Positions 9,269-56,500 of a stretch of DNA of 64,000 nt are shown piece by piece (positions within the stretch are counted from its first letter, which is position 1; every line of letters starts with the position of its first letter). The notes beneath the pieces are model-generated. The model made no database searches. It had not been told where the DNA came from and worked only from the letters and a program-made list of their open reading frames with translations. The position numbers and the translations under genes were made by a program. The stretch spans positions 496,001 through 560,000 of the forward strand of contig BLSF01000008.1 in assembly GCA_012862575.1 (NCBI GenBank), in the 5' to 3' direction. This stretch comes from Parietichytrium sp. I65-24A (taxonomy: Eukaryota > Sar > Bigyra > Thraustochytrida > Thraustochytriidae).

Positions 9269-12200
9269 TTATTCAGTCAGCGCGGAGTTCTTCTGCATCG
9301 CAAGATCGAGCGCTGATACTACTTCATGGCCAATGTTGTTGCTATGTAGTCTAATTTGTTCCAAAAAAACATGAAATCGTCAGCCACGAAGCCTAGAAAG
9401 TTTGGCAACATACTAAACCTTTCACCAAATCTGTGTCAACGTCACACGTACTCCAATGTAGTCAGCACAGCGTTCTTCTTCAACGCGCGGCCGATCGCTG
9501 ATGCTCCTTCATCGCCAATTTTGTTGGCCCAAAGACTATTTCACCACAAAAGAAAGTGCGATCGTCAGCCACCAAGTCCGAGAAATACTACGAACATTTT
9601 CACCAAATTGGCGTCAAAGTCACACTTGCTTTAATGTAGTCAGCGCAGTGTTCTTCTCCAACGCGCGGCCGATCACTGATGCTCCTTCATCGCCAATCCA
9701 GTTCCTTTTGAAACTATTTCATTAGAAAAAAAACATGGAAATCGTCAGAGCCACTTGAGGTACGAAACTCTTTCACCAAACCGGTGTCAAAAGTCACACG
9801 TACTTCAACGAAGTCAGCGCAGTGTTCTCTTCCAACGCGCGACCGATCGCTGAAGCTCCTTCATCGCCAATCCTATTCAACTTAAGCCTATATCACCAAG
9901 AAGACATGGACGTCAGCCACCAAATCCGAGAAAATTTAGTAAGGTAGTAAACCGGTGTCAAAGTCACACGTACGACAATGTAGTCAGCGCAGTGTTTTTT
10001 CCAACGCGCGACCGATCGCTGATGCTCCTTCAGCGCCAAATCCGGTCATCCTGAGACTATTTCATTAGAAAAACACATGGCAATCGTCAGAGCCACTTGA
10101 GGTACGAAACTCTTCCACCAAACTGGTGCCAAAGTCGCACGTACACCAATGTAGTCAGCGCAGTGTTCTTCTCCAACGCGCGACCGATTGCTGATGCTCC
10201 TTCATCGCCAATCTCGTTAAAGCCAAGACTATCTCATTATTAAAAGACACGGAATCGTCAGAGCCATTTGAGGTACGAAACTCTTTCACCAAACCGGTGT
10301 CAAAAGTCACACGTACTTCAACGAAGTCAGCGCAGTGTTCTCTTCCAACGCGCGACCGATCGCTGATGCTCCTTCACCGTAAATCCTATTCGACCTAAGA
10401 CTATTTCATTAGAAAAACACATGGAAATCGTCAGAGCCACTGGAGGTACGAAACTCTTTCGCCAAACCCGTGTCAAAGTCACACGTACTTCAACGAAGTC
10501 AGCGCAGTGTTCTTCTCCAACGCGCGGCCGATCGCTGATGCTCCTTCATCGCCAACTTTGCTACTATCAAGACTATTTCATCACAAGAGAACGTGCGATC
10601 GTCATCCACTAAGTACCAACATTTTCACCAAATTGGCGTCAAAGTCACACGTACTTCAACGAAGTCAGCGCAGTGTTCTTCTCCAACGCGCGGCCGATCG
10701 CTGATGCTCCTTCATCGCCAACTTTGCTACTATCAAGACTATTTCATCACAAGAGAACGTGCGATCGTCATCCACTAAGTACCAACATTTTCACCAAATT
10801 GGCGTCAAAGTCACACGTACTTCAACGAAGTCAGCGCAGTGTTCTTCTCCAACGCGCGACCGATCGCTGATGCTCCTTCAGCGCCAATGTCGTACGAATG
10901 AAGACTATTTCATTACAAAAAGACATAAAATCGTCAGCCACCAAGTCCGAGAAAGTTTAGTAGGGTGCAGAGCCACTTAAGAAGCACGAAACTCTTTCCC
11001 CAAACCGGTGTCAAAGTCACACGTACTCCAATTCAGTCAGCGCAGTGTTCTTCTCCAACGCGCGACCAATTGCTGATGCTCCTTTAGCGCCAATCTCCTT
11101 TTCATTAAGACTATTTCGTTGCAAAGGGACTTAAAATGGTCAGCCACCAAGTCCGAGAAAGTTTAGCAAGCGGACCACACGTCTTCATCAAACCGGTGTC
11201 AAAGTCACACGTACAACAACGAAGTCAGCGCAGTGTTCTTTTCCAGCGCGCGACCGATCGCTGATGCTCCTTTAGCGCCAATACCGTTGCCATATAGACT
11301 ATTTCGTTGCAAAAGGACTTGAAATGGTCAGCCACCATGTCCGAGAAAGTTTAGCAAGCGGACCACACGTTTTCACCAAACCGGTGCCAATGTCGCACGT
11401 ACCCCAACGTAGTCAGCGCAGTGTTCTTCTCCAGCGCGCGACCGATCGCTGATGCTCCTTTAGCGCCAATATCGTTGCCATATAGACTATTTCGTTGCAA
11501 AAGGACTTGAAATGGTCAGCCACCAAGTCCGAGAAACTTTAGCAAGCGGACCACTACGTTTTCACCAAACCGGTGCCAATGTAGCAAGGAACTCCGGTGT
11601 GAAAGTCACACGTACACCAACGAAGTCAGCGCAGTGTTCTTCTTCAACGCGCGACCGATCGACGATGCTCCTTTAGCGCCAATATGGTTTTCTCTAAGAC
11701 TATTTCATCACAAAAAGACATGAGAAGTCGTCAGCCACCAAGTCCGAGAAAGTTTAGCAGGGTACTCATTGGTTTCGCCAAACTGGTTCAAATGTCACGC
11801 GTACTCCAATGTAGTCAGCGCAGTACTCTTCTCCAGCGCGCGACTGATCGCTGATGCTCCTTTAGCGCCAATTCCATTCTTCCCAAGACTATTTCGTTGC
11901 AAAAGGACATAAATCGTCAGCCATCAAGTCCAAGAAATTTTAGCAGATTTCTAAACTTTTCTACACACAGCCACGCATACCTCAAGGACGTCAGCGCGGA
12001 ATTCTTCTCCAGTGCGCGACCGATCGCTGCTGCTCCTTCATTGCCAATCTCGTTGGATGCAAGACTATTCAATGAATCAACAACAGCAAAATTCGTCAGC
12101 CACAAAGCCCGAGAGAGCGTCTAAATGTTTTCATCAAACTGGTGTACATGGTACACGTACGCTAAAAACGTCAGCGCGGTGTTCTTCTCCAGTGCGCGAC

Positions 12201-12601
12201 CGATCGCCACTGCTCCTTCAACGCCAATCTTGTTGGATGCAAGACTATTCAATGAATCAACAACAGCAAAATTCGTCAGCCACAAAGCACGAGAGAGCGT
12301 CTAAACATTTTCACCAAGACGGTGTCACAGTCAGACGTACTCCAATGAAGTCAGCACAGTGTTCTTCTCCAACCCGCGACCAATCGCCGATGCTCCTTCA
12401 TCGCCAAGTTTAGTACTCCTAAGACTGTTTTTATACAAAAAACGCGAAATCGAGAACAAGAAAGTTTAGAAAGGCACCAAATATTTCACGAAAAGCTGGT
12501 GTCAAAGTCGCACGTACTCCATTGAAGTCAGCGTAGTGTTCTTCTCCAACACGTGACCGATCGCTGATGCTCCTTCATCGCCAATGTCGTTGCAGCGAAA
12601 C
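9267..12601 (-). repeat. Tandem exon-plus-intron array of the LRR gene
   Basis: About 19 units of 166-213 bp, each an 84-bp exon plus an intron of 82-129 bp. Introns are similar to one another, not only the exons: most begin gtacgtgtgactttgacacc. They fall into blocks. Introns around 9780-10490 share a gtacctcaagtggctctgac core. Those around 10920-11760 share a ctcggacttggtggctgac core. Those at 12065-12340 share a tttgtggctgacgaattttg core. Exons 10489-10572 and 10655-10738 are identical, and exons 10489, 10655 and 10821 start exactly 166 bp apart. Confidence 0.9.
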
Positions 12602-12973
12602 CTAGTCCATTTGAAAAGAAGAAGACATAAGTCTACAACGGACGATAGAGTTTCATGGAATTCAAGCTTTGGACCAAATTGAAAGTTTCTCATTACTTGC
12701 GTAACTTACATCATCTCTCGAAGCGTTTTGTTTCCGTTGAGCGCCACGATGATCTTCATCGCTCCAGCTTGCCCTCTTGAACCAAAACTGTTGTGAAAGG
12801 ATCGGCATCATCAGAAAAACAAACCACGCTGGCCGTTTCCGTCAGCTGACGCGCAACTTGACTCACCACACTGGTATTCCTCGGTCGACAGCCTTTAGTG
12901 CCTCCTCCAACGAGTCCACCACCCACACCCTCGACATGGCGCCGCACATGTACCAATCTTCGTACTTGCCCAT
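9269..12973 (-). CDS. Leucine-rich-repeat protein, one 28-residue repeat per 84-bp exon (21 exons)
   Basis: I assembled this model by hand. Exon 1 is 12973-12867 (ATG, MGKYEDWYMC), exon 2 is 12787-12710 (78 bp), followed by 19 LRR exons starting at 12601, 12424, 12244, 12064, 11888, 11699, 11486, 11298, 11110, 10904, 10738, 10572, 10400, 10228, 10056, 9887, 9713, 9535 and 9350. Each is 84 bp long except 10056-9974 (83 bp) and the last, which stops at TAA 9269-9271. All introns are phase 2, so every repeat exon is interchangeable. The consensus is L..N.IG.EGASAIGRALEKNTALTSL, the ribonuclease-inhibitor/NLRC type. Donors are mostly gtacgt, and acceptors end aaatag or similar. One donor (after 9630) is gcaagt. 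The summed length is 593 codons including the stop if the 83-bp exon is counted as 84; its one-base loss lies in an A-run. The first 60 residues match no known effector domain. Expected role: cytoplasmic protein-binding scaffold. Confidence 0.8.
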
Positions 12974-13325: not shown

Positions 13326-13326
13326 N
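13326..13326. other. Single undetermined base (N) at the duplication junction
   Basis: The N lies exactly where copy 1 of the duplication ends (gtggaaa) and copy 2 begins inside an LRR intron (cgagaaagtatag). A single N at a repeat boundary suggests an assembly join. Confidence 0.9.
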
Positions 13327-14845
13327 CGAGAAAGTATAGCGAGGTTCTAACATTTTTCACCAAACCGGTGTCAAAAGTCACGTACTCCAATGTAGTCAGC
13401 ACAGTATTCTTCTCCAGCGCGCGACTGATCGCTAATGCTCCTTTAGCGCCAATTCCATTCCGCCCAAGACTATTTCGTTGCAAAAGGACATAATTCGTCA
13501 GCCATCAAGTCCAAGAAAGGTTAGCAAATTTCTAAACTTTTCTACACAAAGCCACACATACCTCAAGGACGTCAGCGCGGTATTCTTCTCCAATGCGCGA
13601 CCGATCGCTACTGCTCCTTCAATGCCAATCTTGTTGGATGCAAGACTATTCAATGAATCAACAACAGCAAAATTCGTCAGCCACAAAGCCCGAGAGAGCG
13701 TCTAGATAACTTGGTGTATATGGTACACGTACGCTAAAAACGTCAGCGCGGAGTTCTTCTCCAGTGCGCGACCGATCGCTACTGCTCCTTCAATGCCAAT
13801 CTTGTTGGATGCAAGACTATTCAATGAATCAACAACAGCAAAATTCGTCAGCCACAAAGCACGAGAGAGCGTCTAAACATTTTCACCAACACGGTGTCAG
13901 AGTCACACGTACTCCAATGAAGTCAGCGCAGTGTTCTTCTCCAACCCGCGACCAATCGCCGATGCTCCTTCATCGCCAAGTTTAGTACTCTGAAGACTGT
14001 TTTAATACAAAAAAACGCGAAATCGAGAACAAGAAAGCTTAGAAAGGCACCAAACATTTCACGAAAAGCTGGTGTCAAAGTCGCACGTACTCCATTGAAG
14101 TCAGCGTAGTGTTCTTCTCCAACACGCGACCGATTGCTGATGCTCCTTCAGCGCCAATGTAGTTGCAGCGAAACCTAGTCCATTTGAAAAGAAGACATAA
14201 GTCTACAACGGACGATAGATTTTCATGGAATTCAAGCTTTGGACCAAATTGAAAGTTTCTCATTACTTGCGTAACTTACATCATCTCTTGAAGCGTTTTG
14301 TTTCCGTTGAGCGCCACGATGATCTTCATCGATCCAGCTTTCCGTCTTAAACCAAACCTGTTGTGAAAGGAACGGCATCATCAGAAAAACAAACCACGCT
14401 GGCCGTTTCCGTCAGCTGACGCGCAACTTGACTCACCACACTGGTATTCCTCGGTCGACAGCCTTTAGTGCCTCCTCCAACGAGTCCACCACCCACACCC
14501 TCGACATGGCGCCGCACATGTACCAATCTTCGTACTTGCCCATCTTTTTCTTCTTTTTGCGTCCCCTCCTTCCGCGCAATACCACAGCGAGTACCTCCCG
14601 GGTCCTCCTCTCTCCCACTGCTCTGTGCACACTCGCACAGACGTGCACTCACTCTGCGTGTACACTTTCTCAATAGTATTGCCTCCCACTATGGCAGGGC
14701 TTACAGCTGCTCACTATCGATCGCCTCCACTTGCTCATTAATTAATGTGATGGACATGGACAAACGAAAGACTCAAAGATAGAGGGGAGAGAGATGAAGA
14801 GAGGGAAAGAGATCATCGAGTGGCGGAGCGGCGACAAAGTGGAAA
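13327..14845. repeat. Direct duplication, copy 2
   Basis: Second copy of the 5' part of the LRR gene and its upstream region. Its right end continues uninterrupted into the leader of the next gene, where the gtggaaa end of copy 1 is followed by gcgggttccgggg and the ATG at 14859. Copy 2 is therefore the one in natural context on its 5' side. Confidence 0.8.
13386..14543 (-). CDS. Partial second copy of the LRR gene (5' seven exons)
   Basis: Exons read 14543-14437 (ATG, MGKYEDWYMC), 14357-14280, 14174-14091, 13996-13913, 13816-13733, 13645-13562 and 13469-13386, with the same phase-2 junctions as the full copy. All five LRR exons are 84 bp and open. No further repeat exon follows, because the sequence reaches the N at 13326 and then the upstream region of the other copy. 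The model is truncated at its 3' side either by a real partial duplication or by an assembly join of two alleles. Exon 2 differs more than exon 1: its start encodes FGLRRKAGSMK against FGSRGQAGAMK in the full copy. Confidence 0.65.
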
Positions 14846-18977: not shown

Positions 18978-19338
18978 CGCTGCTTTCTTCCTCTTCGAGC
19001 TCTCCTTCGCTCCTGTTCTTCCTTTCCTGCCCCAAACGCTCTCTCTTTTCGCCAATCCCACCGAGCGTCCCGTCGCTCTCTTCATCAACTCCGCACTCCT
19101 CGTTCATTCCATTTCATTCCTCTCTCCTTCTGCCTCTCAACTTCTACCGGAAAGCGTAAGCCGTGCCAGAGTGATCTAGCGAGCGAACGGTCGCTTTTCA
19201 CCATCTCGCGACCCAGCACCACGGCTGTTGAGATTTTTGGATTTTTGCGGAACGCGTAAAACGGACAAACTCCGCCCCCAGAATTGGCAATACGCACCCA
19301 GCACCCGCAATAGCAATCGCACCTTTGTGAGGAACGCA
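18978..19338. other. Intergenic, divergent promoter region
   Basis: 360 bp between the EFCAB9-like gene (-) and the IQ/WW gene (+). Overlapping frames cross it on both strands without recognisable content. The right boundary is uncertain because the start of the IQ/WW gene is not fixed. Confidence 0.35.
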
Positions 19339-22300
19339 ATGTTTGCCTCCCCCCCCGGAATTGGACTCGTATCATTCATATACACTGGACTAGCTAGCGG
19401 CAGGCGCGCACCTGGCAAAAACGCGAATACGTCCGCGGATGGTCCTCGGTCATCGCGGAACATTCGCGGAACAGACGCATACATCCCCGCGCGTAACAAT
19501 AGACCGGGAATGCCTTCCGCCGCGCAGGCGGCGTACGCGCTTGCGCTGCGGCGGACGGGCACTTGTCGGCGGGAGGATGGCCCCGCGCCAGGTCCCTCTC
19601 CCTCTCCCGCTCCTGTTCCAGTTCCCAGAGGCGGAGGAACATTCCGCTCCAAAAAGCGTCCTCGCCGCGGACCGCGGTTGAAAAAGCGTTCCGCAGCTGG
19701 ATTTGCGCAGATTGCGGGGGATGCTCGGCAGGAGACGACTGCGCCGATGCGCGCCGGCGTGTTCCGGGCCCGCATCGGCGCGTACACCTGGTTCTTCAGC
19801 GCTTGGGGCGACGTCTCTGCCGCGCGCGCGGACACTTTGCGCATGCTCGCGCACGGCGCGCACCCTTTCGCTGCTGCTCAGAAGACCTGGGATGCCGGGG
19901 CGAGTTGGGCGAGTTGGGACACCTTGGACTCGGGGGACAGTGACAATGCAGCGGGAAGCAGGGGGCAGCGCATGAGTGTGCGCGTACACGTACGCGAGGT
20001 GTGGGGCGCGCCGATGTTTGCGGATGGGCGCAGGAAGGTCTCGGCGCAGGCGGTGGAGAGGCAGCTGGAGGCCAGGTTGCGTGCGGCCAGGGAGAGGTAT
20101 GCTGGGCAAGTGTTGGGGAAAGCGGCGAAGGTGTATTATAGGAGCAAGACCGCACCCGCGCTGGCAACGTGGGCGAGGTTTGCGGAGGAACATAGGAAGT
20201 GGCAGAGGGAACAGGCTGCAATACGTGTACAAACACTGGGCAGAGGGTTCGTTGTGCGCAACAGGCGATGGGCGCACAGACGGGACGAGGCGCAGGCTAA
20301 GATTGCACGCATGGCAAGGGCCCGTGTGGCCAGAAGAGCTGGCAAACTTTGGCTGGAAAGGCGGAGGCTGGATCTTGCCGCTGTGAAGATACAAGGGATG
20401 ATGCGGAATATTTGGGCCCGTAGAAGCCGGTCCTTGATGCTAAAGCTGCGCGACTGGGATGACGCCGCCCGCGTGATTCAAGCTGGTTGGCGACGAAGCA
20501 AGAGCTGCAGAGTCGCAAGAGCTGCTCTTGCTACACGCCGGAGGCTTGCTGCTAGAAGGCAAATCATCGGCTTCTTGCGTGTTTGTGCTGCTAAAAACGA
20601 GCTGTTCAGGTTGCGCTTAGAAAACGCTGCGGTGAGAGTTCAGACTCGATGGAGATGTCATCGTGGGCAACTCGCGAGCCAACTCATTCGCGGTCAAAAG
20701 CGAGTTGAAAACGAGGCGGCATCACAGCTCCAAGCCGTGCTGCGCGGACGGCGCGACAGAAAGATGGCTCTTAAAAAGCGGCGAGAGCGCGAAGAGAAGG
20801 CAGCGATCAAGATCCAAGCAAGATGGAGGGCAAAGCACTCACAGCTAGCCACTTTCATGATCCGCCGGGAGAAATTGAGGGCTGCCAAAGTCATTCAAAA
20901 ATTCTATCGAAACAACTGCATCAAGATCTATGTCATGCACCGCAAGCGAGTCAGAGCCGCCAAAAGAGTTCAGCGTGTCTTTCAGATACTTAAAAAGAAG
21001 AAGCGTCGTGCAGCTTGGAAGATTCAAAACGCTTGGAGAAAGACGCGAGAGCGAAGGAGAAGGGACAGCGCTTCCATTACTTTGCAGAGCTGGTGGAGAA
21101 AGGAAAGACTTCAAAGAACGTTTATCGCAAGACGGGTTGCCGTGTGCGTTTTGCAGAGGCTGATTCGTTCTCATCAGGCCCGACTCATGGTCGAAGCACT
21201 TCGGAGCCGGCGGGAGCGTCTTGCTGGCCTGCCGCTATGCGACGAATGTCACGACGAGGTATGCCACGTACTCTGTGATGCATGTGAAGGAAAATTTTGC
21301 GAGTCGTGCATGGGCGTCATCCACAGAATTTTAAAAGATCACGAGCGTATGCATCTCTCCGGAGGTGTGCCACTCATTTTTCATGTAGATTGGACTCATG
21401 ATCATGTCAGAGCAGCATCGCAGATACAGAGATCATGGCGAAGACGGAACGCTAGGGTGCTTCTTTTAGCTAAGCGAGCAATCAGAATCAAGCGCGAACA
21501 CGCATTGGCTATGGCACGGATGAGGTGGCGCTATAACGCCAAGCGCTCGGCGAATGCCAAAGTTATTCAAGCCTTAGCTCGAGGCTTCCTTGCACGCCGT
21601 GAGCATGCCCTTCGACTGACGAAGGCAACCCTAATCAACTCGTGGGCAAGGTCTGCGCTCGCTCGAAACAACCTTCATCGATTGAAGGCTGCTGCAATTC
21701 GTTTGCAGGCGTTTTCCCGAGCCCATGCTGCCAAGAAAAGATATCAAGACTGCAAGGCAGCCACGATCCGCTTGCAAGCTTTTGCGAGAAGGAACCAAGA
21801 TCGGCTCAAATTTATCATCCTGTTGAAATCTGTGATCAGAATTCAGACATTCTATCGCATGCGCATGAACAGCAAACGATACAGAGCAATTCTGAAGAGC
21901 GTGATTCTCATTCAAGCAGTGGTGCGCACATTTCTTACCAAAAAGAATTTGCGAAACAAGCACCAGTGCGCTACTACAATTCAAGCTCGAGCAAGAGCCC
22001 ATATACAGCAGCGGTCGTATCTGCACTTGCGCAGGATGGTTCAGAGAATCCAGGGCCAAGTTCGTATGGCACAGTCGCGAACCGCTCTCCGTGCCAAGAG
22101 GCTTGAGCGTGCAAGACTTCTATTGCTCGATGAGCACTCCCGAGAATTTAGCGCTAGAAGAATCCAGCGTGTTTTCCGACGGTGGTTTTCTCGCAAGCTT
22201 GCAGCCCTTCGAATTCAACGGCAGTGGAGACGGAGGCAAGGACAATTTGCGGCATTTTTGGTGGGGGTTGCGCGAGCACAAGCTGCAGACGATGAACTTG

Positions 22301-23136
22301 ACCTGGAGTGCGCCTGGTCAAGGCACTGGGATCCATATAACGAGAGGCATTACTATTTCAACAATGAGACATTGGAAACGACTGTTAAGAAGCCGGCAGC
22401 GTACGAACTTGCAGAACTTGAGCGTTTGTGCAGGCAAGAAATGCGCAAGGAAGAGGTTCTGGTGTTCAAGTTGATGGAGATAGAGGCCGAACGTGCGGAG
22501 CGGGAGAGAATGAACGCCCCGGAGAACTGGAAGGTCTTCTTTGATGAGCAGGCTGACCCAGTTCAAAAGTATTACGTTAATGAGCTTTTAGGAGTCTCAA
22601 CGTACGAACGTCCAGAAGTCCTGGGGCGGGACCCAGACGTTGCTTTGTGGAGTACTCACATTCACCCCGTTTCGAACCGGCCGTGGTATTATAACACTGA
22701 AACTGGGGAGACCACATGGGATCGTCCAGTTCAGGACCTCGGATATGAGTACTTAGAATATTGGGATTTCGAGAAGAAGTGCCATTACTGGTATTCCACG
22801 GTGACAGGCGAGAGTACCTATCAAAAGCCATCCGAGTTCGGCAAGGACCAATTGGTTCCAAATGCGGACTCTGACGGCCAGACGACTCATATTAGTGGCG
22901 CAGACGATCCTGCGTTTAGGAAGTGGTTCGAAGCTATCGACGAAGAGACAGGTCATCCGTACTACTACGAATACAATGAGTACACGCAGACCACCGAGCA
23001 AATCGTTTGGGAACGTCCTGAGGCGCTGATGAGCGAGCACGAAAAGTGGAACGAGTATTGGTCCTCTGAGGAGAAGCGCTCATACTATGTAAATAAGAAG
23101 GATCCGTCCAAAGTGCAGTGGAAGAAGCCGTGGTGA
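19339..23136 (+). CDS. IQ-motif, B-box and multi-WW scaffold protein
   Basis: The frame is open from 19228 (TTG). The first in-frame ATG is 19339; ATGs at 19510, 19747 and 19972 are alternatives because the first 290 residues are GC-rich, proline/arginine-rich and unrecognised. From about residue 290, some twenty IQ-type repeats (AAxxIQxxxR) should bind calmodulin or light chains. A B-box-like zinc site (CDECHDEVCHVLCDACEGKF, then CESCM and HERMH) interrupts them near residue 635-670. The last 270 residues hold six WW-like modules, the clearest being ENWKVFFDEQ...YYVNELLG and STHIHPVSNRPWYYNTETGE, which bind proline-rich ligands. This combination fits a cytoskeletal or flagellar scaffold. The molecular partner is unknown. 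About 1,265 residues from the first ATG. Confidence 0.8.
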   Translation: MFASPPGIGLVSFIYTGLASGRRAPGKNANTSADGPRSSRNIRGTDAYIPARNNRPGMPSAAQAAYALALRRTGTCRREDGPAPGPSPSPAPVPVPRGGGTFRSKKRPRRGPRLKKRSAAGFAQIAGDARQETTAPMRAGVFRARIGAYTWFFSAWGDVSAARADTLRMLAHGAHPFAAAQKTWDAGASWASWDTLDSGDSDNAAGSRGQRMSVRVHVREVWGAPMFADGRRKVSAQAVERQLEARLRAARERYAGQVLGKAAKVYYRSKTAPALATWARFAEEHRKWQREQAAIRVQTLGRGFVVRNRRWAHRRDEAQAKIARMARARVARRAGKLWLERRRLDLAAVKIQGMMRNIWARRSRSLMLKLRDWDDAARVIQAGWRRSKSCRVARAALATRRRLAARRQIIGFLRVCAAKNELFRLRLENAAVRVQTRWRCHRGQLASQLIRGQKRVENEAASQLQAVLRGRRDRKMALKKRREREEKAAIKIQARWRAKHSQLATFMIRREKLRAAKVIQKFYRNNCIKIYVMHRKRVRAAKRVQRVFQILKKKKRRAAWKIQNAWRKTRERRRRDSASITLQSWWRKERLQRTFIARRVAVCVLQRLIRSHQARLMVEALRSRRERLAGLPLCDECHDEVCHVLCDACEGKFCESCMGVIHRILKDHERMHLSGGVPLIFHVDWTHDHVRAASQIQRSWRRRNARVLLLAKRAIRIKREHALAMARMRWRYNAKRSANAKVIQALARGFLARREHALRLTKATLINSWARSALARNNLHRLKAAAIRLQAFSRAHAAKKRYQDCKAATIRLQAFARRNQDRLKFIILLKSVIRIQTFYRMRMNSKRYRAILKSVILIQAVVRTFLTKKNLRNKHQCATTIQARARAHIQQRSYLHLRRMVQRIQGQVRMAQSRTALRAKRLERARLLLLDEHSREFSARRIQRVFRRWFSRKLAALRIQRQWRRRQGQFAAFLVGVARAQAADDELDLECAWSRHWDPYNERHYYFNNETLETTVKKPAAYELAELERLCRQEMRKEEVLVFKLMEIEAERAERERMNAPENWKVFFDEQADPVQKYYVNELLGVSTYERPEVLGRDPDVALWSTHIHPVSNRPWYYNTETGETTWDRPVQDLGYEYLEYWDFEKKCHYWYSTVTGESTYQKPSEFGKDQLVPNADSDGQTTHISGADDPAFRKWFEAIDEETGHPYYYEYNEYTQTTEQIVWERPEALMSEHEKWNEYWSSEEKRSYYVNKKDPSKVQWKKPW

Positions 23137-43211: not shown

Positions 43212-46200
43212 TCATTCGACAATGCTGTCGTAATCGTCAATAATTTCCGAAGACCTGAATGAGCGTCGATGAGTATTCTTTTTCAACGTTGTCCTTGTGC
43301 GCTTAAACGAGTCGGGATGATGGATCGTGCTTGCTGAAGCTGTAGTCGCCCCTTTGCTGGAAGGGGTAACTTTATGTCTGTCGTTCCGTTGGCGTGTTTC
43401 ACTGGGTTTCAAGTTGCTGCTTCTTGTAAATAGTTCAGCACCCACTCCTTCCGTGGGTGGCGAGACGTGAACAAACCACATTTTAGGGCCAAAAATGGTC
43501 GCTAAACTGACTATGTCGTTCACAAAAATTACACCACTCTTCACGAACATGGTCCCAACTGGGTTGGCTTTGAGCAGAACCAGGAGAGGCAAAGTTAATA
43601 CCCAAATTTGACACATGGAGAAAAGCGTAACACGAATGTACTTCCCTTCCGAGAAGGCGACGTTGATGTGTTGCGTTGCAAGGGCAATGTAAGAACCGAG
43701 TACGAGAATCACGGCGTGGTAGCATGTGACGATGAGGTAAAAGTATTCTTCGAAATTGCTCAAGCAGACCCCGTTGCTCGATATCAGCTGGCTGTACTCA
43801 TTCACTAGAACCGGATAGCGCACATATTCAAGTGGGTCTGAGATCGTCCAAACTGTCAAAATCGCCAGGTCCACGGACAGGAATTTAAATATCGTCAAGA
43901 GCAGCTGTTTGTCGGAAATCCGCTCGTATTGCTCAAATTTTGCGGAAAAAAGAGCGCCAGCTCTCGCATTCTTGGCAAATAAGGAAGCAAAGGATACGAG
44001 AAATCCAACATTGTAAAACCAGGGAGTAAGCTTGCAAATCAAGGAGAGCGCTTCTTGATTCACGTCGACGTCATCCAAAGCGAGGAATATTATGGAAGTC
44101 GCGCTGAACAACTTCCCACCTGCGAACAAATTCAAAAACCTTCCCTGTGAAGCACGAATAACCATGTGGTTTCTTTGCAAAAAGGTCCACAGCATGGAAG
44201 TGAGCGTCATAAAGTAAACTATGGCACTCATTGCGAGGCACGAGCCTTTCACTAGCCTGTTTGAGTTGTAGTCCTGGTCCGGGGGGTCTGCAAAGGCGGG
44301 AGGAGTGTCCTCGCCTCCATTGAATAACTCTGGTGAGCACTGCGCGCAACCGTAATTGAGTGAAGTAGATCGGGCGTTGCATTCTGCAATCAGTTGAAAA
44401 GACGCTTCCCATTCCTCCTCAAGGCTATCCCAGTTGAAGAAGACATTGCGGACCTCATAGTTACTGGTGTTTGGGGATCGATTTCCGACGGAATCGAACT
44501 GAACCGGCCCAGTGAGGCCATTGAACGACAAAGTTGACATGGCCTCTAGAAACCGAGACGAAAAACTTGTTACTTCTATGATGTCTCTCGGCTCAATGCT
44601 GCAAGCCGCAAGAGCCGCCGCAGCGAGTGCATCGAATTCATAAGCGGCAATACGCCCAAAAATATGCCATTCTTTTGTTGCGTCAAAGCTTGAGTTCGAA
44701 AAAACCGTCTTCGAAAGAGGTACTGAAGGAGCCAACTCCAACAGATCCGTAAATGACAAGTTGCTCCACATTTCAAGCAGCTTCGAGAAACCATCATTAG
44801 CAAGGCTGCCACCGGTAAATTCGACCACTTGCGAGCCATTCAAAGCTCTCAAAAGACTTTCGCCTGAGACGTCCACCAGAAGTGCAGCGCTTTGAGAACT
44901 TGAAAAGAAGAGCTGTTTGCCGCTTCCAACAAGCCCAAAGCCATACAGTTCTTCGACTAAATTCACAAGCTCAGAGTTTGTGCCGTCGTCTATGATTGCT
45001 AGAACGTTCAGTTTCGTTTCAACAATTGCCTCATATGATAGTTTCAGGGGAGCGAAACTCAGCGGGAACGTGAGCAGAGTAATATTCATAGCCTTGCAGT
45101 GCTTGAGCAGTTCGTTTCTATATGACCGACCAGTTTCGTCGTCCACGAAGATGACCGCAACGTAATCAAAGGAGTTCTTACTCCAGGCTGCGCACATTGC
45201 CTTCGCCGGCGCCGCGCTACTAGGTATAGTGCGCGAAAATAAGGGGTACCTCTTGCGATCGTCGAGAGTTGCCGAAGTCGCGCCATATGATACCAGCGGG
45301 ATTTTGTATACTTCACCGAACATCGCCGTTGCAGTTGCCTGCTCGTCCAAGTACGGCCCGATGATAACGTCTACCTCCTCGTTTCCCAACACGTCCATTG
45401 AGGAGAGAGCTGAAGATCGCAATGTTCCGCTGTCCTGTACATTCAACTCGATGACCTTGTTGCAGCTGTTATCAAGATCGCCGAATTCAGGTACTAGCAA
45501 TGCGCTTCGAGCATTGAATTGCTCTACAGCAAGGAGTGTTGCCATTAGACTCGCTTGCCAGATGCCGCTCAAGTAGCACGAGTCAGAAACCCAGTGGCCA
45601 GGACAGTCTTCCGAGGTCAGTACTGTGGAATCCGTCAATGGATGCAAGATTCCAATTCTCAAGGCACTAGATTTCCGTTTTGGCACATCAGGTGGCGCCT
45701 CTGTTGCATTTCCGGTGAACACTGAAATTCTGGCGCCCTCTTTAAATCCCTTGGCTTCCACATCAAACGATCCGACATGGCTTGGTCGCATCCCCGCGCC
45801 ATCTCCCACCAAAATGTTGTCAAGATCAACAATGAGGGAACCAGATTCACGAATAGCGTCATTGCCAAAGGATACTGAACCAGTGATGCCATCAAAGCTG
45901 AGACCTTTGAGCGCACTTAAGAAATTGCTCGCATATGAACTGTTGTATGCATTATAGGGAGCCGCGGCGCAAGCGGCCAAGCCGGTTGCGATGACAGCTT
46001 CATAGGCGAGAGCGGCAGTCAATCCGCTATGTGCTTCGCTCAAAGCTGCCTGACCGGTCAACATTGCGGAGTAGCTTTCTGACACTTCGTTTGGCAACTC
46101 CAGAAGAATACTCTCTACTTTAACCTCACCTGGGTAGAGTCCGTATTTTCCTGTGTGACTGAAGAGGACGGACCCGTGGAGCTTTTCTTGAACGGATGCG

Positions 46201-49061
46201 TCAAGGTTGGAAAAGTAAGGAATCATGTATCGATCGGCAAACGTCCACAGGGTTCCATTCCCAAGGAGCCCTGTTTGAGCTGCTTCCTTGATAATTGCGC
46301 AGATCAGATTTGATTCCGCGCCACTAGGGTTTCCACTCCCAGCAAGGAGCACGATGTTGCGATTGAGTGATTTTAAGGGAGTAATAACCTTTGCATTCAC
46401 GTTGGCGACGTCCATTTCCCTAGAAAAGACAATGGTGGAAACCAAGATGCCGAGCTCCCGGCACTCGTCCTCCATTAGGTACCCGATCGCCTCGCCACCA
46501 TCCGAGTCTGGTACGAGCGCTGCTGCAACTTGGTACCCATAGCTCGCCCAAAGCTGGCAGAGTCCTGTTGCCAGGCTTCGCCCTCCCGGATGTAGACGAA
46601 ATAAAGTACTTTTGGAAGACGCCTCAGGATACTCCGAAATGAGAGGGGTAAAAGAAAGCATGGGCATCTTGTAGACGGCGGCAAGACCAGCAGCTGCAGA
46701 GACTGAGTCACCCTCCATCGGTCCCAGTATCGTATCAACAAGACTGTTGTTTGAGAATGAGAGGGCCGAAGCCAGAGTCTTCGATGGCGACATACCACTG
46801 TCGAGAAATGAAATGGAGATGTTTTTGTTGCAACTCAGATTAGCCAAGACCGGAACGTAGGTGTCGTTTCGCGTATTAAAGTGTTTCGCTGCAAGTAGGA
46901 TTCCCCCGAGCGCGACCACATTTTCGGAAAGAGGAAAACAAGTTCCAGCTCCTTTCAAGTCTATGACCCACATTCCGTTACAAAGCGATTCTTTCTCCAC
47001 CTGCAAATCTGTCATGGGATAGAGAACACCGACCTGAAACAAGCTCGGGTGTCTCTCGAGTACGTTGGCTGGTTGCGTATAGGAGCCACCGTTGTATATC
47101 CGCTCGCTAACTCCATCTAGCAGTTCGAAATCTGACAAATCAATGTTGTATGTGGCGATCTCCTTCAGCGCAAGACTCGTGGCATTAGAATTAGTCTCCT
47201 TCTCGAGCGTGAAGGCGCTTGTACCTTCCAGCCACGGGTATCTTGCGTTGGTTTCTGGATCAAAAAGGAACATTCCTGAAAGGCCCATGTAAAAGTAATA
47301 ATAATCATCGGTGATTGCACCGATCGCCTCCCGAACCTCAGCTGCAGGTAGCATGCCGTCCGCTTCGAAAGAGTATGCCGCAAAGAGTCCGAAATTAAGA
47401 ACCAAATCGTACTGTAAGGCGCCAAAAGTTCGGACCTCACGGCTCCTCCATGGGTCAAAATCGTCAAAAAGTGACTGCGTAAGCCAGTCTCCTTCACCTT
47501 CTGGGAGAAGTTCCCGCAGTTTCTCGGCGTCAAAAGTAGACCATGCACCCAGCAGATCATAGAACCCCTCGTTTTGCGAAGGATCGGCTCCGCTGGACTG
47601 AATCACAGTGGAACCGTGCAACAGGTCTATGATTTCAGAGTCCAGACCGTCAGTCATTTCATGGATGTAATCATTTGGGAAGACCCACAGCGTACCATTA
47701 CGCAATAATCGCGACTCGAATGCATCTTTTACGATCTGTTGAAACCTGAGAACATCATGATCACATGGAAACACAATGATGTTCAACTGTGTACTGTTGG
47801 CTTCCTTGATTGATGCTTTCAACAATGACGGACTGGCCAGCTCTTCCCTGGTGAATATAAACTCGTGGATTGCAAGATCATGCGTCGCAGCACTCGTTCC
47901 AAAATCTTGTCGGAACCGAGAAGCGAAATTGTCCTCATCACTTCCAAGGACGAGAACGTCCGAATATCCCATTTGCCGGGAGAGAAACACGGCGACGGAC
48001 TCTGCAACAACCTTTGGCCCAGACGACCCTGCGAAATATATACCGGTTTCCTTCATGATAGATGAGGCCGAGAAAGAACCGTAGTTGTAATTCGCAATCG
48101 GCAGGTGATATGGAGTGGCGATGTTCAATGCGAGCTGGACAATATCTGGATCGCCCCCTGCAACGACAAAATTGGTCTCACCAGTGCTCATTTCAATGAT
48201 TCTAGAAGCGAAGTCCTTTGTGGTGCCCCTGGTATCAATGAATGAGTCTACGACCATCTTGTACTTGGGGGCAAAATATCCAATATCAGATGCGAACCGT
48301 GCGTCATGTTCGTTAAACTGTTGAACGGCTAAGAGCCCCATTGCGGCTACCGCCTTCCAATCGTCGCTGAGGTTGCACACTCCATCTACAAAATCCCCCT
48401 GGCACTCCTCGGCACTGCTAGCCGATATATCAGTCAGCTGATTAATAAACCCAACACGCACGACTTTTGACACGCACTCTCCGCTGAAAAGCCCTGATAG
48501 GTACAGCGACTCGTTCTCATCACACGGACTAATGCCGAGAGGTTCTCCGCATAAGCTTTTACCAGGCTCTTCAGCATAGAGGCCCTCGTCGCAGAAGCAA
48601 TAACAATATTTGTAATCCTGGCCGGGCCCGAAATAATCTAGCAAATTGTGACTTATACAGATGGACGCCGGTTCTGAGCAGAGCATCTTGTTGTCACAAG
48701 CGTCCGTCACACAGCACGTGCCGTTATTATACACATTCAATTTCGCTTCAGGCTCGCAGCCGCTCTCCACAAAAGCTATGTACGGACTCGAGTCTTCCAA
48801 GCTCCGATCAACAGTGATATTTCTGTGCACGGCATTTCTTGCCGCCCATTCTTCGGGCAGGGTTATTCTGCTTTCCGATGCCTCCTCCAAGCCACATGTC
48901 TCTTCTCTTTCGACCAGCTCCACGCCATGATTTATAATCAAAGGACAAGAGGTCACCGAGCGCTCCTGAATCGGCAAAAACGGGGCGCCGCTTTCTACAC
49001 CCCAAGAGCCAGCGACGGCTGCACAGTTTAACAAGACCGCAGCAATTTGGCGCCTCCTCAT
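43212..49061 (-). CDS. Class C GPCR (GABA-B type) with three tandem Venus-flytrap modules
   Basis: Start taken at ATG 49059-49061, giving a signal peptide (MRRRQIAAVLLNCAAVAG); an upstream TTG extension is ignored. About 1,949 residues, no intron needed. A cysteine-rich module (about 85-195, with NGTCCVTDACDNKMLC and CYCFCDEGLY) precedes three periplasmic-binding-protein-like domains that begin VRVGFINQLTDIS (about 202), FQVGVLYPMTDLQ (about 675) and LRIGILHPLTDST (about 1135). The seven-helix region spans about 1595-1865 and has the GABA-B signature NHMVIRASQGRFL after helix 1 and NVAFSEGKYIRV late on. It ends in a polar cytosolic tail. It should sit in the plasma membrane and sense a small ligand; the ligand is unknown. 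Paralogue of the receptor at 53588. Confidence 0.88.
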   Translation of the reverse strand: MRRRQIAAVLLNCAAVAGSWGVESGAPFLPIQERSVTSCPLIINHGVELVEREETCGLEEASESRITLPEEWAARNAVHRNITVDRSLEDSSPYIAFVESGCEPEAKLNVYNNGTCCVTDACDNKMLCSEPASICISHNLLDYFGPGQDYKYCYCFCDEGLYAEEPGKSLCGEPLGISPCDENESLYLSGLFSGECVSKVVRVGFINQLTDISASSAEECQGDFVDGVCNLSDDWKAVAAMGLLAVQQFNEHDARFASDIGYFAPKYKMVVDSFIDTRGTTKDFASRIIEMSTGETNFVVAGGDPDIVQLALNIATPYHLPIANYNYGSFSASSIMKETGIYFAGSSGPKVVAESVAVFLSRQMGYSDVLVLGSDEDNFASRFRQDFGTSAATHDLAIHEFIFTREELASPSLLKASIKEANSTQLNIIVFPCDHDVLRFQQIVKDAFESRLLRNGTLWVFPNDYIHEMTDGLDSEIIDLLHGSTVIQSSGADPSQNEGFYDLLGAWSTFDAEKLRELLPEGEGDWLTQSLFDDFDPWRSREVRTFGALQYDLVLNFGLFAAYSFEADGMLPAAEVREAIGAITDDYYYFYMGLSGMFLFDPETNARYPWLEGTSAFTLEKETNSNATSLALKEIATYNIDLSDFELLDGVSERIYNGGSYTQPANVLERHPSLFQVGVLYPMTDLQVEKESLCNGMWVIDLKGAGTCFPLSENVVALGGILLAAKHFNTRNDTYVPVLANLSCNKNISISFLDSGMSPSKTLASALSFSNNSLVDTILGPMEGDSVSAAAGLAAVYKMPMLSFTPLISEYPEASSKSTLFRLHPGGRSLATGLCQLWASYGYQVAAALVPDSDGGEAIGYLMEDECRELGILVSTIVFSREMDVANVNAKVITPLKSLNRNIVLLAGSGNPSGAESNLICAIIKEAAQTGLLGNGTLWTFADRYMIPYFSNLDASVQEKLHGSVLFSHTGKYGLYPGEVKVESILLELPNEVSESYSAMLTGQAALSEAHSGLTAALAYEAVIATGLAACAAAPYNAYNSSYASNFLSALKGLSFDGITGSVSFGNDAIRESGSLIVDLDNILVGDGAGMRPSHVGSFDVEAKGFKEGARISVFTGNATEAPPDVPKRKSSALRIGILHPLTDSTVLTSEDCPGHWVSDSCYLSGIWQASLMATLLAVEQFNARSALLVPEFGDLDNSCNKVIELNVQDSGTLRSSALSSMDVLGNEEVDVIIGPYLDEQATATAMFGEVYKIPLVSYGATSATLDDRKRYPLFSRTIPSSAAPAKAMCAAWSKNSFDYVAVIFVDDETGRSYRNELLKHCKAMNITLLTFPLSFAPLKLSYEAIVETKLNVLAIIDDGTNSELVNLVEELYGFGLVGSGKQLFFSSSQSAALLVDVSGESLLRALNGSQVVEFTGGSLANDGFSKLLEMWSNLSFTDLLELAPSVPLSKTVFSNSSFDATKEWHIFGRIAAYEFDALAAAALAACSIEPRDIIEVTSFSSRFLEAMSTLSFNGLTGPVQFDSVGNRSPNTSNYEVRNVFFNWDSLEEEWEASFQLIAECNARSTSLNYGCAQCSPELFNGGEDTPPAFADPPDQDYNSNRLVKGSCLAMSAIVYFMTLTSMLWTFLQRNHMVIRASQGRFLNLFAGGKLFSATSIIFLALDDVDVNQEALSLICKLTPWFYNVGFLVSFASLFAKNARAGALFSAKFEQYERISDKQLLLTIFKFLSVDLAILTVWTISDPLEYVRYPVLVNEYSQLISSNGVCLSNFEEYFYLIVTCYHAVILVLGSYIALATQHINVAFSEGKYIRVTLFSMCQIWVLTLPLLVLLKANPVGTMFVKSGVIFVNDIVSLATIFGPKMWFVHVSPPTEGVGAELFTRSSNLKPSETRQRNDRHKVTPSSKGATTASASTIHHPDSFKRTRTTLKKNTHRRSFRSSEIIDDYDSIVE

Positions 49062-50541
49062 GGCTCCGTTTGACCAGCTCGCATAGCTTGCCAGTGCGCT
49101 ATGCAAGCGAGAAGACTTTCGCGGACAGCGACGGCCCCCTGTTCAGCCCCGCGGACAAACTGGCTCTGCTCACTCACTGCCCGTACTCTTCACTCTTCGC
49201 CCTTCACTCTGTGGCAGTTTTGCAGTCTCGCACACGGTCACGACGGTCACCTTTATTCTGAATTTGTTATTCTAAATCCGATTTTACCGGTACCGGTGCT
49301 CACTGTCAGTATTGCCAGCAAGGTGCTGTCTGTACTTAGAGGTAGTCGAAGTTGTGCCTGGATTGGTGAGGTTTGGCCATGTTTGGCCACTCCTTCTAGT
49401 CTCCTTGCCCCTACGCCCCAACGCTCTTGCAACTCGCGTCATACCCCTCTGTGCTGCGGGTGTCGTTGCGTAGCAGTCCATCATGCAGTGACTGTGCAGA
49501 GACATGTAGCACAGCAGAGCCATACTTTGGTCCGACTCTTGCTTGGTACCGGTACAAGCTCTTCCACCGGGAGAGAGAGGTTTGTGTTGTCGTTTGCAGT
49601 CACAGTCTCTTGTCCATTCTTTCAGAATGCAGGTGATACACATGTGCGAAAATGTAATTGACATTGGCGGTGACATCACAGCGAGCGAGTTTCGAGTGCT
49701 GAGAGTACAGTGAACCACAAACTGAGTTCATCAAAAAGCCAGCCTTTCTTTCTTTTCCTCTCGCTCGCTCAGTATACTCTCTGTCTTGTTTCGCGAGTTT
49801 GTCGAGTGATGAAACCTACTTGCTTTGCTCTGAACAAGTTTATTCAGGGTTCACTCACTGTAAGAACAGATACTTTCATGCCGACATGGGGGCAGGGGGT
49901 CGTTTGCCTGGAAAGCAATGTTGGTTGCTGGCGATCGCTGGTGTGAGAGTGATAGTGACCGTTACAGTGACCAACGGTCTGCAACTCGGCGGTGCATTAC
50001 GCTCTTGAGGTGCATTACGCTCTTGAGGTGCATCACGCCGAGCCTTTCCCGGAGATGACTGGATGTCAAACCGACGTTTGTACCGTTCTTCGTTGTGTTT
50101 CTTCTTTTCGAAGTTTCGGGAGTCTTTATTCACTGCCTTCATTTTCTTCATTTCCTCATTCACCGACTCGGAGACCTAAGAGACCTAAGGCTCCTAAGGC
50201 CATCAGCCCCACGAAGTCACGGTATCGCGAAGTGCAGCGTAAACAAACCTTATCAGAAGGTAGGATGTGATATGCCTTGAAATTGAACGAGCGAAACCCA
50301 ATTCCAGCATGTCAGAGGCCTTTGCGGCAGTCTTTGGAGTAGTCCCGCCGAGGGAACTGAACTGGGGAACGCGAATCCTGTCGCCATACGACATCGGAAG
50401 ATGTCATTATGATCATAAAGATGTCTTTTCAGAAAGATGCCTTCGCAATGGGAGCGACTTTGAGCGCAGCAGGCGGAGCTCGAAGACGGAGGAGCAGGGG
50501 CAGCCGGTTGGGTCTTGCAGCGGTGGGAGGAGCATAACGAA
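49062..50541. promoter_or_regulatory. 1.5-kb divergent intergenic region
   Basis: Lies between the receptor (-) and the DJ-1-like gene (+). It contains ccggtaccggt elements near 49283 and 49545 and a 2.6-fold 18-bp direct repeat (ggtgcattacgctcttga) at 49991-50037. Several overlapping frames lack any signature. The frame of the downstream gene is open for 27 bp before its ATG. Confidence 0.45.
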
Positions 50542-52883: not shown

Positions 52884-53587
52884 GTCTCTCACGGGCTTCC
52901 AATCTTATCAATCCAACTTCTTCTTCTCTTCCCCTCGCCAGCTTTTACGCATCTTCCACCGCACCCTTTCCCCGTCTCTCTCATCTCTCTCTCTCTTGTC
53001 ATTTCTCACACATCACACCCACCATTGGTGAACGCGAGAGTGTTCTCTTTGCTCCTCGTCAAAGAATTGCTCTTCGTTCACCGACCTGGGAGTTCATTAA
53101 AAGCCTATTTAATTTATGAAGTGTACAGGGTTTGGTTTGCCAAACCATGGTTGAATTAGTAAGCTCTACTTCGTGAGGGGATGTGAATGGATGTGAAGGG
53201 GAAAGTGGGATCATCATGTTGGCAGGAAAATTGCCGTTACACTCTGCCCGGGTGATACCAAAGCTTACAAGACCTGTTCGAGTTTTTGGTGTTGTATGGT
53301 GTTGTATGATTGATTGATTGATCGTTGATTGATTGATTGAAAGTGACACTTTGCAACAGCGCAATTGCTGATAATTGCTGGAGTTGAACAGCATATAGCG
53401 GTGGCATCAAGCAAGGCATCGGCAACGGGAGGTGGTCAGGGTCTGCGAGGACGGAGAACGCGGGAAGGTGGAGGATTGCAGGAGAACAAGTCAATCAGCG
53501 AGGGCAAAAGTGTGGGCGGTGGCCTGGCAACAAGCCTCGCCGTATGCTGGAAGAACTGGAGGCTGTCGGGGCTAGTTTAAAGGCGTG
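52884..53587. other. Intergenic, divergent, with GATT repeat
   Basis: 700 bp between the methyltransferase (-) and the second receptor (+). A gattgattgattg run lies at about 53308-53340. Pyrimidine-rich tracts occupy 52920-53030. No gene is supported. Confidence 0.5.
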
Positions 53588-56500
53588 ATGCTGTCAAGGG
53601 CTGGCGCAAAATGGCTCCTGTGCGCCCATCTTGCCGCCGTGATACCTTGCAGCGCTGAGGATTATTACTCGAGCAGCTCCGCTTATGATGGCTTGGGCTG
53701 GGCAGTGATCGAAACAGGGTGCGAAGCTGTGGTGTCGTACGGCTATAATACTTTTGTGAATATGACATGCTGCGAACTTCTTTGTCCCGCAAACTCTCAA
53801 GCAAACTGCGAGGGGACTCTTCAATTGTGCGACACTTATTACATTCCGGAGTATGACAGACCAATCAGCTGCCAGTGCGTTTGCAAGCCGGGGTATTATG
53901 CTGGAGACACCGCCGCAGCGACCGAGTGCTGCGCTGTATTTGGGAGGACTTGCCTTTCTCATCAGATGTGCGTCGTCAATCAGAACTATGTCGCAGAGTG
54001 TAGAGAGGTCTCGTTTCAGATTGGACTTGTTCAAGATATTACCGATGGTGACGGAAGCACTCTGGTAGACAACCTGTCCATTTTGGCAGCGTCTGTGTTG
54101 GCCGTAATCCACTTCAATGAGAGGCTCACAACCTACGTGGAAGACATTGGCTTGGCATCGAGCTGCGGAGTGAACGTTACTGCAGTGGAATTTTGGGACA
54201 GCGCGAGCTCCCCGAGTAGCGCGGTGGAAGGAACTCTAAGCGGCTTGGCGAATGGTGCGCACGCAATACTTGGGCCCGGGTCGATAAATTCGGCGGTGTG
54301 GACCACACCCGTCACCTCCAGTTTCGATGTTGTGCACTTTGCTGGTTTGCATGGATTAACTCAAGCTGCTAAGGAGAAGCTCTCTGATACCTGGTTTGAC
54401 ATGCAAGCTCCAGCAGAAATAGTTGCGCAAGCAACCTGTCGGTTCCTGCTTCAGGAGCTGAAGTTCTCGACCTCGATTCTCCTCTATTCGCCTGCTGATC
54501 CAGCAAGTGTGGATTTGTTCCGTCTTATTCTTAGCGCGTGCAGCTCTCTTGATGTTGATTTGTTCAACTACGGACTCTTCTCATCTGATGAGTACCTGAG
54601 TGAGTTGGTCGAAGCCAACTCCACAGGGATAAATAGTGTAATCTTTGTTGGGGCCCAATACGAGGAAAACGTTCCCATTCTTATGGCTGCGAGAGAGGCA
54701 GGTTTACTGCGCGCAGGCATGGTGTGGATCTTTCTGCAAGATTCAATTGTTGAACAATTGCGCATTGCAGACTCTAGTGCGCTGGAGATTATTGACGGAT
54801 CGTTCTTTCTCAGCCTCACGCCCGAGGCGGACTTACCTCAAGGATATCAAAGGTTCATGGCCGACTGGCCAACATTTGACGAGCAAGAAATAAATGAGCT
54901 GCTCGCAGACACTGGGATCGAGCTTCCACAGGGTTTTTTCGCCACATCCGCCTTGACGCAAACCCCTGTCTTGCAAATGAATCTGGCGATGGCATATGAC
55001 AGTGTGATTGCAGTTGGAATTGCAGGATGCCAACTCTATCAAACGATTGAGTCTATGCCGTCCTTGGAGGTGCTTCGCCTTGAGCTCGTGAATGCGGTCA
55101 AAGACGTGGACTTTTTGGGCCTCTCTGGCCAAGTGGTGTTTGACTCGGACTATAAAAAGCGGCAAACGACGAATGCAGCAGCTCTTGTGCACAATCTTAG
55201 GCTGGGAGACTCTGGTGGCGATCTCACTCCTTTGAAAGTTGCGACATACAACTATTCGACGTCTACCTTCAGCTTTGACTCTGCGGCAGGAGGGGTGGCC
55301 GATCTGACATTCACGGGGCACTCCAGCAGCGTGCCCAAAAATATGGTAACACGATCTCAGGATGAACTTATTTTAGGCTTGTTGTATCCAAAGCTTGACA
55401 GCGAGCAGGATGTCGACAGTTTTGCCGCAATCCTTATGGCAGTGCTGGATTTTAACAGTCGCAATTCTTTTGCCGTTAGTGAGCTCGAAGCCTTGGAGTC
55501 CGTGTGTAATAAAAAAATCAGGCTTTTGGTAAACGAGCCTGCAACGGACGTCGAGAGGGCGATTGAATCGGCTTTGGATTATCTTAAAGAGCAGCGGGCC
55601 GATGGTATAATAGGTTTTGGACTGGAAAGCCAGGTCATGGCGTCTGCGGTTCTAGCGAGTAGTCACCAGAAATTGATGCTCTCCTTCGACACACGCACGG
55701 CCAAGCTGCGGGAAGACTTGTACGAAGGAGCAGTTCGGCTCATTCTTAGCGATGCTGAGATCGCAGCTGCGCTATGTCAACTTTGGTCAGATAGAGGGCT
55801 TTCTGCCGCCGGCATGGTTATCCCAGCGAATGCGAGGGGAGACGGATTCCGGCACCTTGTGATTGACGAGTGTACGGCTCGAAGCGTCGAAATCAGCGCT
55901 TTCCTGTATGAAGTAGGGAACGTTGAAGATATGAATGAAGTCTTGCTGCGTTTGGTCCAATCTCGAGTCAACTTTATAGGTTTTTGCGACACCGGCAACA
56001 AAACCTCGAATGGGCGGCAGCATTTTCAGAACTTGATCGAGCTCGCGTATCAAACGCAGGCACTGCGGGAGGGTGTATCCTGGACGTTTTTGGACTGGTA
56101 TGTGATGGATTATATTTCTGCAACGAATTTCTCATCGAGCATAAGAACGCTGTTGTCCGGAAGTTTCGTATTTTCCGAGCCTCTGGAGGAAACGTCTGGA
56201 CTCATCGATCAGTTCAAGTATTTTGACTACAAACATGCGATATCGGATCTGGAACTCACCGACGTGGTTCAATATTTTGATCCTGTAAGCACACTAGGCG
56301 CACGTATAAAGCAGAGCGACTTGAGCAAAATGAGTTTCAAGCTGCAAGCACACTTCGCCTACGAGGCTGTGATGGCTGCTGGGTTCCTCGTTTGCTCAGC
56401 TTTCCCCGAGGAGGCATTGGACACGGTGGACGCTTGGGAAAAACTCAAGCCACGCCTGCCAACGCTTGCTTTTGCAGGACCATCTGGGACTGTCAGCTTT

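Follow-up and report, generated by a model that had tools for sequence, protein, structure and literature searches.

Tandem 84-bp leucine-rich-repeat exons in Parietichytrium sp. I65-24A: a genome-wide gene family probably diversified at its predicted contact residues

The stretch of DNA analyzed here (the window; 64,000 nucleotides of contig BLSF01000008.1 of Parietichytrium sp. I65-24A, assembly GCA_012862575.1) raises the question of why a gene on its minus strand should be divided into a long run of short exons of the same length, each holding one leucine-rich repeat (LRR). The explanation that we consider probable is that this gene belongs to a large, recently expanding and fast-diversifying family of ribonuclease inhibitor (RI)-type LRR proteins, in which one 84-bp exon encodes each repeat and the contact residues are diversified for recognition. 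The first-pass annotation of the window is incomplete in this respect: it described the gene, but missed the family, a second copy next to the gene and the hypervariable contact residues, and it underweighted a break in the reading frame.

The gene was confirmed in outline as an LRR gene with one phase-2 exon per repeat. It occupies 12973-9269 of the minus strand, where a 107-bp ATG exon, whose N-terminal cap starts MGKYEDWYMCGAMSRVW, and a second exon of 78 bp precede 19 LRR exons (Table 1; the main gene or main copy below). As first annotated, exactly 84 bp were found in 17 of the 19 LRR exons, the exceptions being exon 15 (83 bp) and the last exon (82 bp, to the TAA), and the exon coordinates and the joined frame agree in placing every border in phase 2, after the second base of a codon. 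Introns between LRR exons, 18 in all, are 82–129 bp long; AG acceptors precede all 19 LRR exons, and the donors between them are GT in 17 of 18 cases and GC in one (after 9713-9630). Directly upstream, at 14543-13386, is a truncated second copy with five LRR exons (copy A). The window holds 19 stop-to-stop frames of at least 250 aa, the longest of 1976 aa, some of which overlap and may be due to chance; since long single frames are so many, an LRR gene with 20 introns is locally conspicuous. No signal peptide was evident by eye in the exon 1 product, and an Rfam scan of the window gave no match.

The LRR identity proposed in the first pass was borne out by the 453 joined residues that precede the 83-bp exon. 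These matched Pfam LRR_6 with 233 bits, and all four Pfam families found at E up to 0.001 were LRR families. The top solved-structure matches were 9y6s (a ribonuclease inhibitor-like protein) and 9e5c (MOP84A), and further matches included ribonuclease inhibitor (1dfj, E 8.9e-27), 5irm (E 6.1e-26; listed as uncharacterized, which we take to be a NOD2) and NLRP14 (9w2m, E 7.1e-19). With repeats of 28 residues, within the 28–29 of RI-type LRRs, and matches to RI-class profiles and structures, the gene falls in the RI type.

Relatives of the gene were found throughout the assembly (42.5 Mb, 172 contigs). A 47-bp repeat core, searched with up to three mismatches, occurred 299 times (166 forward, 133 reverse), and the reversed-pattern control had no genome-wide match at the same threshold. 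A 231-bp exon-intron query gave 156 genome matches, and a 111-residue query gave 104 at E up to 1e-5, with intronless LRR frames among them. Relatives of exon 1 lie at 52 places (E up to 0.1), both copies in the window among them and the other 50 having 40–58% identity. In the loci sampled from these searches, nhmmer placed 375 distinct unit positions, 372 of them with context. The pattern AG, 84 bp, GT or GC, without N, was present in 327 of these 372 (315 GT, 12 GC; 26 contigs), and the remaining 45 include broken lengths, contact with N and matches to intronless LRR genes. The units form 47 clusters, 29 of them with at least five units; arrays of 9–21 units occur at many places, and the main copy ranks among the largest with its 19 units, the maximum in these loci being 21. 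The median unit spacing (values below 400 bp) is 186 bp, with 161–205 bp as the 5–95% range. Since the loci were chosen by similarity and many span only about 3 kb, unit and cluster counts are minimum values from a non-random set.

The position of exon 1 relatives on the contigs was also recorded. A contig start is at most 2 kb away for 13 of the 52 matches, and nine of the 52 are minus-strand matches no more than 500 bp from one (C110, C53, C41, C54, C22, C19, C4, C58, and C121). The assembly thus looks as if it had been broken inside arrays, which again makes the unit counts lower bounds. A fourfold TTAGGG was searched for and not found, and proximity to contig ends is therefore no evidence of a subtelomeric location.

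The repeat units carry coding and splicing signals across the family. An in-frame stop was present in one of the 327 exons, whereas translation in the two alternative frames meets a stop in 308 and 314 exons, respectively; these counts are not independent because the exons are related to one another. Of 313 units, 226 have GTACGT as the opening six bases of the intron, and 228 have a branch-point-like CTGAC 16–45 nt upstream of the exon, most commonly starting 33 nt before it. For CTRAY in the same interval the count was 250 of 313, compared with 23 of 313 in a control interval of equal length taken from the intron after the exon. A non-coding satellite was considered and ruled out by the openness of the frame and by a ratio of nonsynonymous to synonymous difference (pN/pS) of 0.48 in the conserved codons.

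Which residues vary was analyzed in 326 exons, that is, the 327 minus the one with a stop. Codons 2, 3, 5, and 26 encode 20, 20, 20, and 19 residues, with entropies of 3.76, 3.83, 3.43, and 2.95 bits; codon 8 comes next (2.54 bits), and all others stay at or below 1.62 bits. The codon split by the intron is likewise variable. When the main gene is considered by itself (18 exons), codons 2, 3, and 5 together with the split bases have a mean diversity of 0.67, compared with 0.14 for the rest of the exon and 0.28 for the aligned intron. The variable codons are the x positions of the repeat L-T-x-L-x-L-x-x-N-x-I, the scaffold residues of which are conserved. In LRR structures these x positions face outward from the concave strand; placed on known LRR folds, the variable residues are predicted to be exposed there. 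The variation of a binding surface suggested by the first-pass annotation thus finds its counterpart in predicted contact codons that are hypervariable across the family.

Whether selection acts on these codons was weighed against the intron, and here a first point counts against it: family-wide, the upstream intron (ungapped, 326 exons) varies by 0.33–0.73 at positions -30 to -3, near the level of the variable codons. Therefore, exons were compared by closeness, and the contrast rests on the closer pairs. Pairs were binned by identity over the 140 bases of flanking intron, using the 313 of 326 exons with full N-free flanks (13 dropped). In the bin of 86–90% intron identity, with 179 pairs, the share of differing bases is 0.61 for codons 2, 3, and 5, as against 0.08 for core first and second positions and 0.12 for fourfold sites. 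Over 216 pairs with 86–94% intron identity, difference at codons 2, 3, and 5 is 5.0 times as high as at fourfold sites (3.7–7.3 when contigs are bootstrapped). When disjoint pairs were used to avoid the reuse of exons, pN at codons 2, 3, 5, and 26 compared with pS in the rest of the exon was 0.483 vs. 0.137 at 86–94% identity (43 pairs), 0.097 vs. 0.034 above 94% (21 pairs), and 0.539 vs. 0.201 at 78–86% (73 pairs). Fisher values for disjoint pairs ignore shared ancestry and were not relied on. Diversifying selection on the predicted concave-face residues would account for these pair counts, and we hold it to be probable as part of the explanation as a whole.

The number of repeats changes as well. 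The earlier proposal that exons can be gained or lost without loss of frame is supported by LRR units 11 and 12 of the main gene, a perfect tandem duplicate with a period of 166 bp and a perfect run of 221 bp, and by exact or nearly exact copies of one to three neighboring units in other arrays (one unit in C45 and in C8, two units in C88 and three in C47). Identical pairs over codons 1–5 number 27 within contigs and six between them. The tandem duplicates and the within-contig pairs fit unequal exchange inside arrays. Two wider processes were considered and set aside. As to a recent transfer of cassettes between loci, three of the six between-contig pairs are one sequence, and the intron identity is 69–76%. 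As to strong homogenization between loci, which the near-identical cores had suggested, LRR cores (8000 sampled between-contig pairs) have a fourfold difference of 0.275 and first exons one of 0.364 (17 first exons, 136 pairs; 26 of the 52 places entered, 18 of them in sampled loci, copy A left out), only a mild contrast.

According to the explanation that we favor, each 28-residue repeat sits on one 84-bp exon between phase-2 introns, because of which exon-plus-intron units, mostly of about 186 bp, could be gained or lost by unequal exchange between near-identical neighbors with the frame intact. The scaffold is conserved, while the outward strand residues would be driven to differ. The product would be an intracellular LRR horseshoe recognizing varied or changing partners, for example in defense against microbes or viruses or in telling self from non-self; recognition of varied partners would most likely be its use.

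Besides the variable intron flank, several observations weigh against this explanation. The scan of 453 residues revealed no signaling domain; neither NACHT nor NB-ARC was detected there, nor ROC-COR, the scan covering the main gene only, the remainder of which consists of LRR exons. Support for recent exchange between loci far apart is weak. The main gene itself has a broken frame in addition to its GC donor, and silent sites in the variable block differ more than expected; these last two are taken up with the alternatives that they bear on.

The main copy may be a pseudogene, may be cut to 477 aa, or may contain an assembly error. The total of 593 codons given in the first pass stands as a sum (1779 bp including the stop) when the 83-bp exon is taken as 84, but not as a frame, because exon 15 (10056-9974), read as it is, stops the frame inside itself at 477 aa. 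That the main copy is a pseudogene in decay within a family that is otherwise alive is tentatively possible: in addition to the lost frame and to the GC donor after exon 17, its neighbor copy A is truncated, and 45 of the 372 units depart from the N-free pattern described above. On the other hand, all LRR exons other than exon 15 are open up to the final TAA, the omission of exon 15 from the join gives 564 aa, the frame being kept because the neighboring exons have the same phase, and a single N at 13326 leaves room for sequence error.

This N also bears on a possible assembly artifact. It lies exactly at the junction of the cut fifth intron of copy A with the 5′ region of the main copy, the upstream region of which recurs before copy A. 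Comparison of the two copies shows 20 differences over the 420 bases of five LRR exons, 16 over 368 aligned bases of four introns (not counting gaps) and 14 over 302 aligned bases of the upstream region, where there are also 51 gap columns; their identity is about 95% in exons, introns, and upstream region alike. Copy A and the main copy may represent a true tandem duplication or an assembly join. The fifth donor of copy A and exon 2 of the main copy share their phase and the joined frame is open, so a fused copy A-main copy transcript is possible as judged from the sequence. We consider it unlikely that the gene pair and the perfect duplicate units are partly artifacts from collapsed or joined haplotypes. 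The N, the uniform identity and the 13 exon 1 matches close to contig starts would suit such an origin, and the arrays of 9–21 units at many sampled loci speak against it.

It is quite improbable that the variable codons are simply unconstrained. Codons 2, 3, and 5 each show all 20 residues, which speaks for this reading, but amino-acid change at the variable codons is 2.7–3.7 times the silent change elsewhere in the exon (four disjoint-pair sets) and exceeds intron divergence, whereas neutrality predicts equality.

Less probable still is a local process of mutation or conversion, rather than selection alone, as the source of the hypervariable block. Its basis is the silent difference, which is raised at the variable codons too (0.358 vs. 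0.137 elsewhere; 43 pairs), as is not predicted by plain amino-acid selection, although counting is unreliable at saturated codons. Furthermore, at codon 4, where the Asn residue is nearly constant across the family, the silent third base differs in 0.34–0.37 of pairs at 78–90% intron identity, compared with 0.00–0.25 at six other pyrimidine-ending sites, an excess of 1.4 to many times. Repeated replacement at those codons could explain the silent excess in the block, as could a local process. The latter is opposed by the sharp edge of the block (0.00–0.006 at the third base of Ile 6), by codon 14, which reaches 0.25, and by repeated loss and regain of Asn, which can raise silent turnover. That a dedicated local process of this kind, by targeted mutation or cassette conversion, together with changes in exon number, should diversify the LRR contact codons of a receptor-like repertoire, as an anticipatory recognition system in a single-celled stramenopile, is the most improbable of the readings considered.

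Table 1. Positions of the main gene, copy A, and their junction in the window.
Feature	Position	Strand	Remarks
Exon 1, ATG, 107 bp, N-terminal cap	12867..12973	-	relatives at 52 genome places, both window copies included
Exon 2, 78 bp, phase 2 to phase 2	12710..12787	-	joined frame
LRR exon 1, 84 bp	12518..12601	-	
LRR exon 2, 84 bp	12341..12424	-	
LRR exon 3, 84 bp	12161..12244	-	
LRR exon 4, 84 bp	11981..12064	-	
LRR exon 5, 84 bp	11805..11888	-	
LRR exon 6, 84 bp	11616..11699	-	
LRR exon 7, 84 bp	11403..11486	-	
LRR exon 8, 84 bp	11215..11298	-	
LRR exon 9, 84 bp	11027..11110	-	
LRR exon 10, 84 bp	10821..10904	-	
LRR exon 11, 84 bp	10655..10738	-	unit identical to that of exon 12, intron included
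LRR exon 12, 84 bp	10489..10572	-	
LRR exon 13, 84 bp	10317..10400	-	
LRR exon 14, 84 bp	10145..10228	-	
LRR exon 15, 83 bp	9974..10056	-	frame broken as read
LRR exon 16, 84 bp	9804..9887	-	
LRR exon 17, 84 bp	9630..9713	-	GC donor after
LRR exon 18, 84 bp	9452..9535	-	
Last LRR exon, 82 bp	9269..9350	-	to TAA
Copy A	13386..14543	-	ATG exon 14543-14437, exon 2 14357-14280, five 84-bp LRR exons, no terminal exon
Single N	13326	.	junction of the cut fifth intron of copy A with the 5′ region of the main copy

Elsewhere in the window, two long single-exon frames were identified. The frame at 43212-49142 (minus strand; 1976 aa) has two ANF_receptor stretches followed by 7tm_3, and that at 53576-59119 (plus strand; 1847 aa) has three followed by 7tm_3; judged by their domains, they are class C G protein-coupled receptor-like proteins with repeated ligand-binding domains. 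A frame of 1318 aa at 19180-23133 (plus strand) contains IQ motifs and a WW domain.

Additionally, the assembly was inspected for traits of the group. TTA is a stop codon in the Thraustochytrium mitochondrial code (NCBI table 23). On contig C141, a cox1 frame of 389 aa with 47 leucine codons contains no TTA, nor does an atp6-like frame of 102 aa, and a cox2-like frame has three TTA codons, all before its first Met (the last two frames were named by eye); the absence of TTA from the coding part of the three frames is as expected for this code and makes a labyrinthulomycete likely. PfaA, of the polyunsaturated fatty acid (PUFA) synthase, had no genome match above the cut-off (best 143.8 of 1010.1 bits), which either speaks against a typical PUFA-synthase thraustochytrid or reflects how far the search could reach.

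Finally, the family was compared with known systems. In the paper library searched, nothing was found on an 84-bp LRR exon and, for LRRs in thraustochytrids or labyrinthulomycetes, one relevant paper, a transcriptome study with a passing mention; a wider search gave none on this group among the 10 of 412 papers listed. The first-pass annotation had called the architecture unusual, which does not hold, since uniform tandem LRR exons with phase-2 introns are described in Tetrahymena (PMC6564038) and in brown algal ROCO genes (PMC11378527). The 28-residue RI-class repeat is shared, with strong matches, by the LRR domains of ribonuclease inhibitor and of NLR proteins; neither NACHT nor another NLR domain was found in the 453 residues.

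Tetrahymena has thousands of LRR genes with tandem 90-bp exons and an extreme phase-2 bias, in which exon/intron units are repeated in variable number, LINE-like elements adjoin units, and unequal crossing over was proposed for the expansion (PMC6564038). Tandem LRR exons of one exact length, phase-2 introns, repeated units, and a variable unit number are common to those genes and to the present family; the exon length differs, 84 bp (28 residues) here as against 90 bp, which keeps the family outside the Tetrahymena definition. In brown algae, LRR-ROCO genes have one LRR per 72-bp exon in phase 2, LRR-only relatives are mentioned, alternative splicing is documented, and positive selection was reported at concave-face sites 14, 16, 18, and 19 of the repeat (PMC11378527). 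In our own comparison, these sites have the same spacing as codons 26, 28, 2, and 3. One LRR per exon, phase 2, and diversified concave-face residues (here predicted, from pair counts) are thus shared, while the exon length is 72 bp there and 84 bp here and the ROC-COR of LRR-ROCO was not found in the main gene. Another protist group seems to share the solution of one LRR per phase-2 exon with a conserved scaffold and hypervariable contact residues. If this is true, the repeated evolution of exon-cassette recognition families becomes testable, and a single-celled host would allow the study of strain differences, expression, and ligands. The architecture is already known from ciliates and brown algae, and it is in exon length and repeat class that the present family differs from them.

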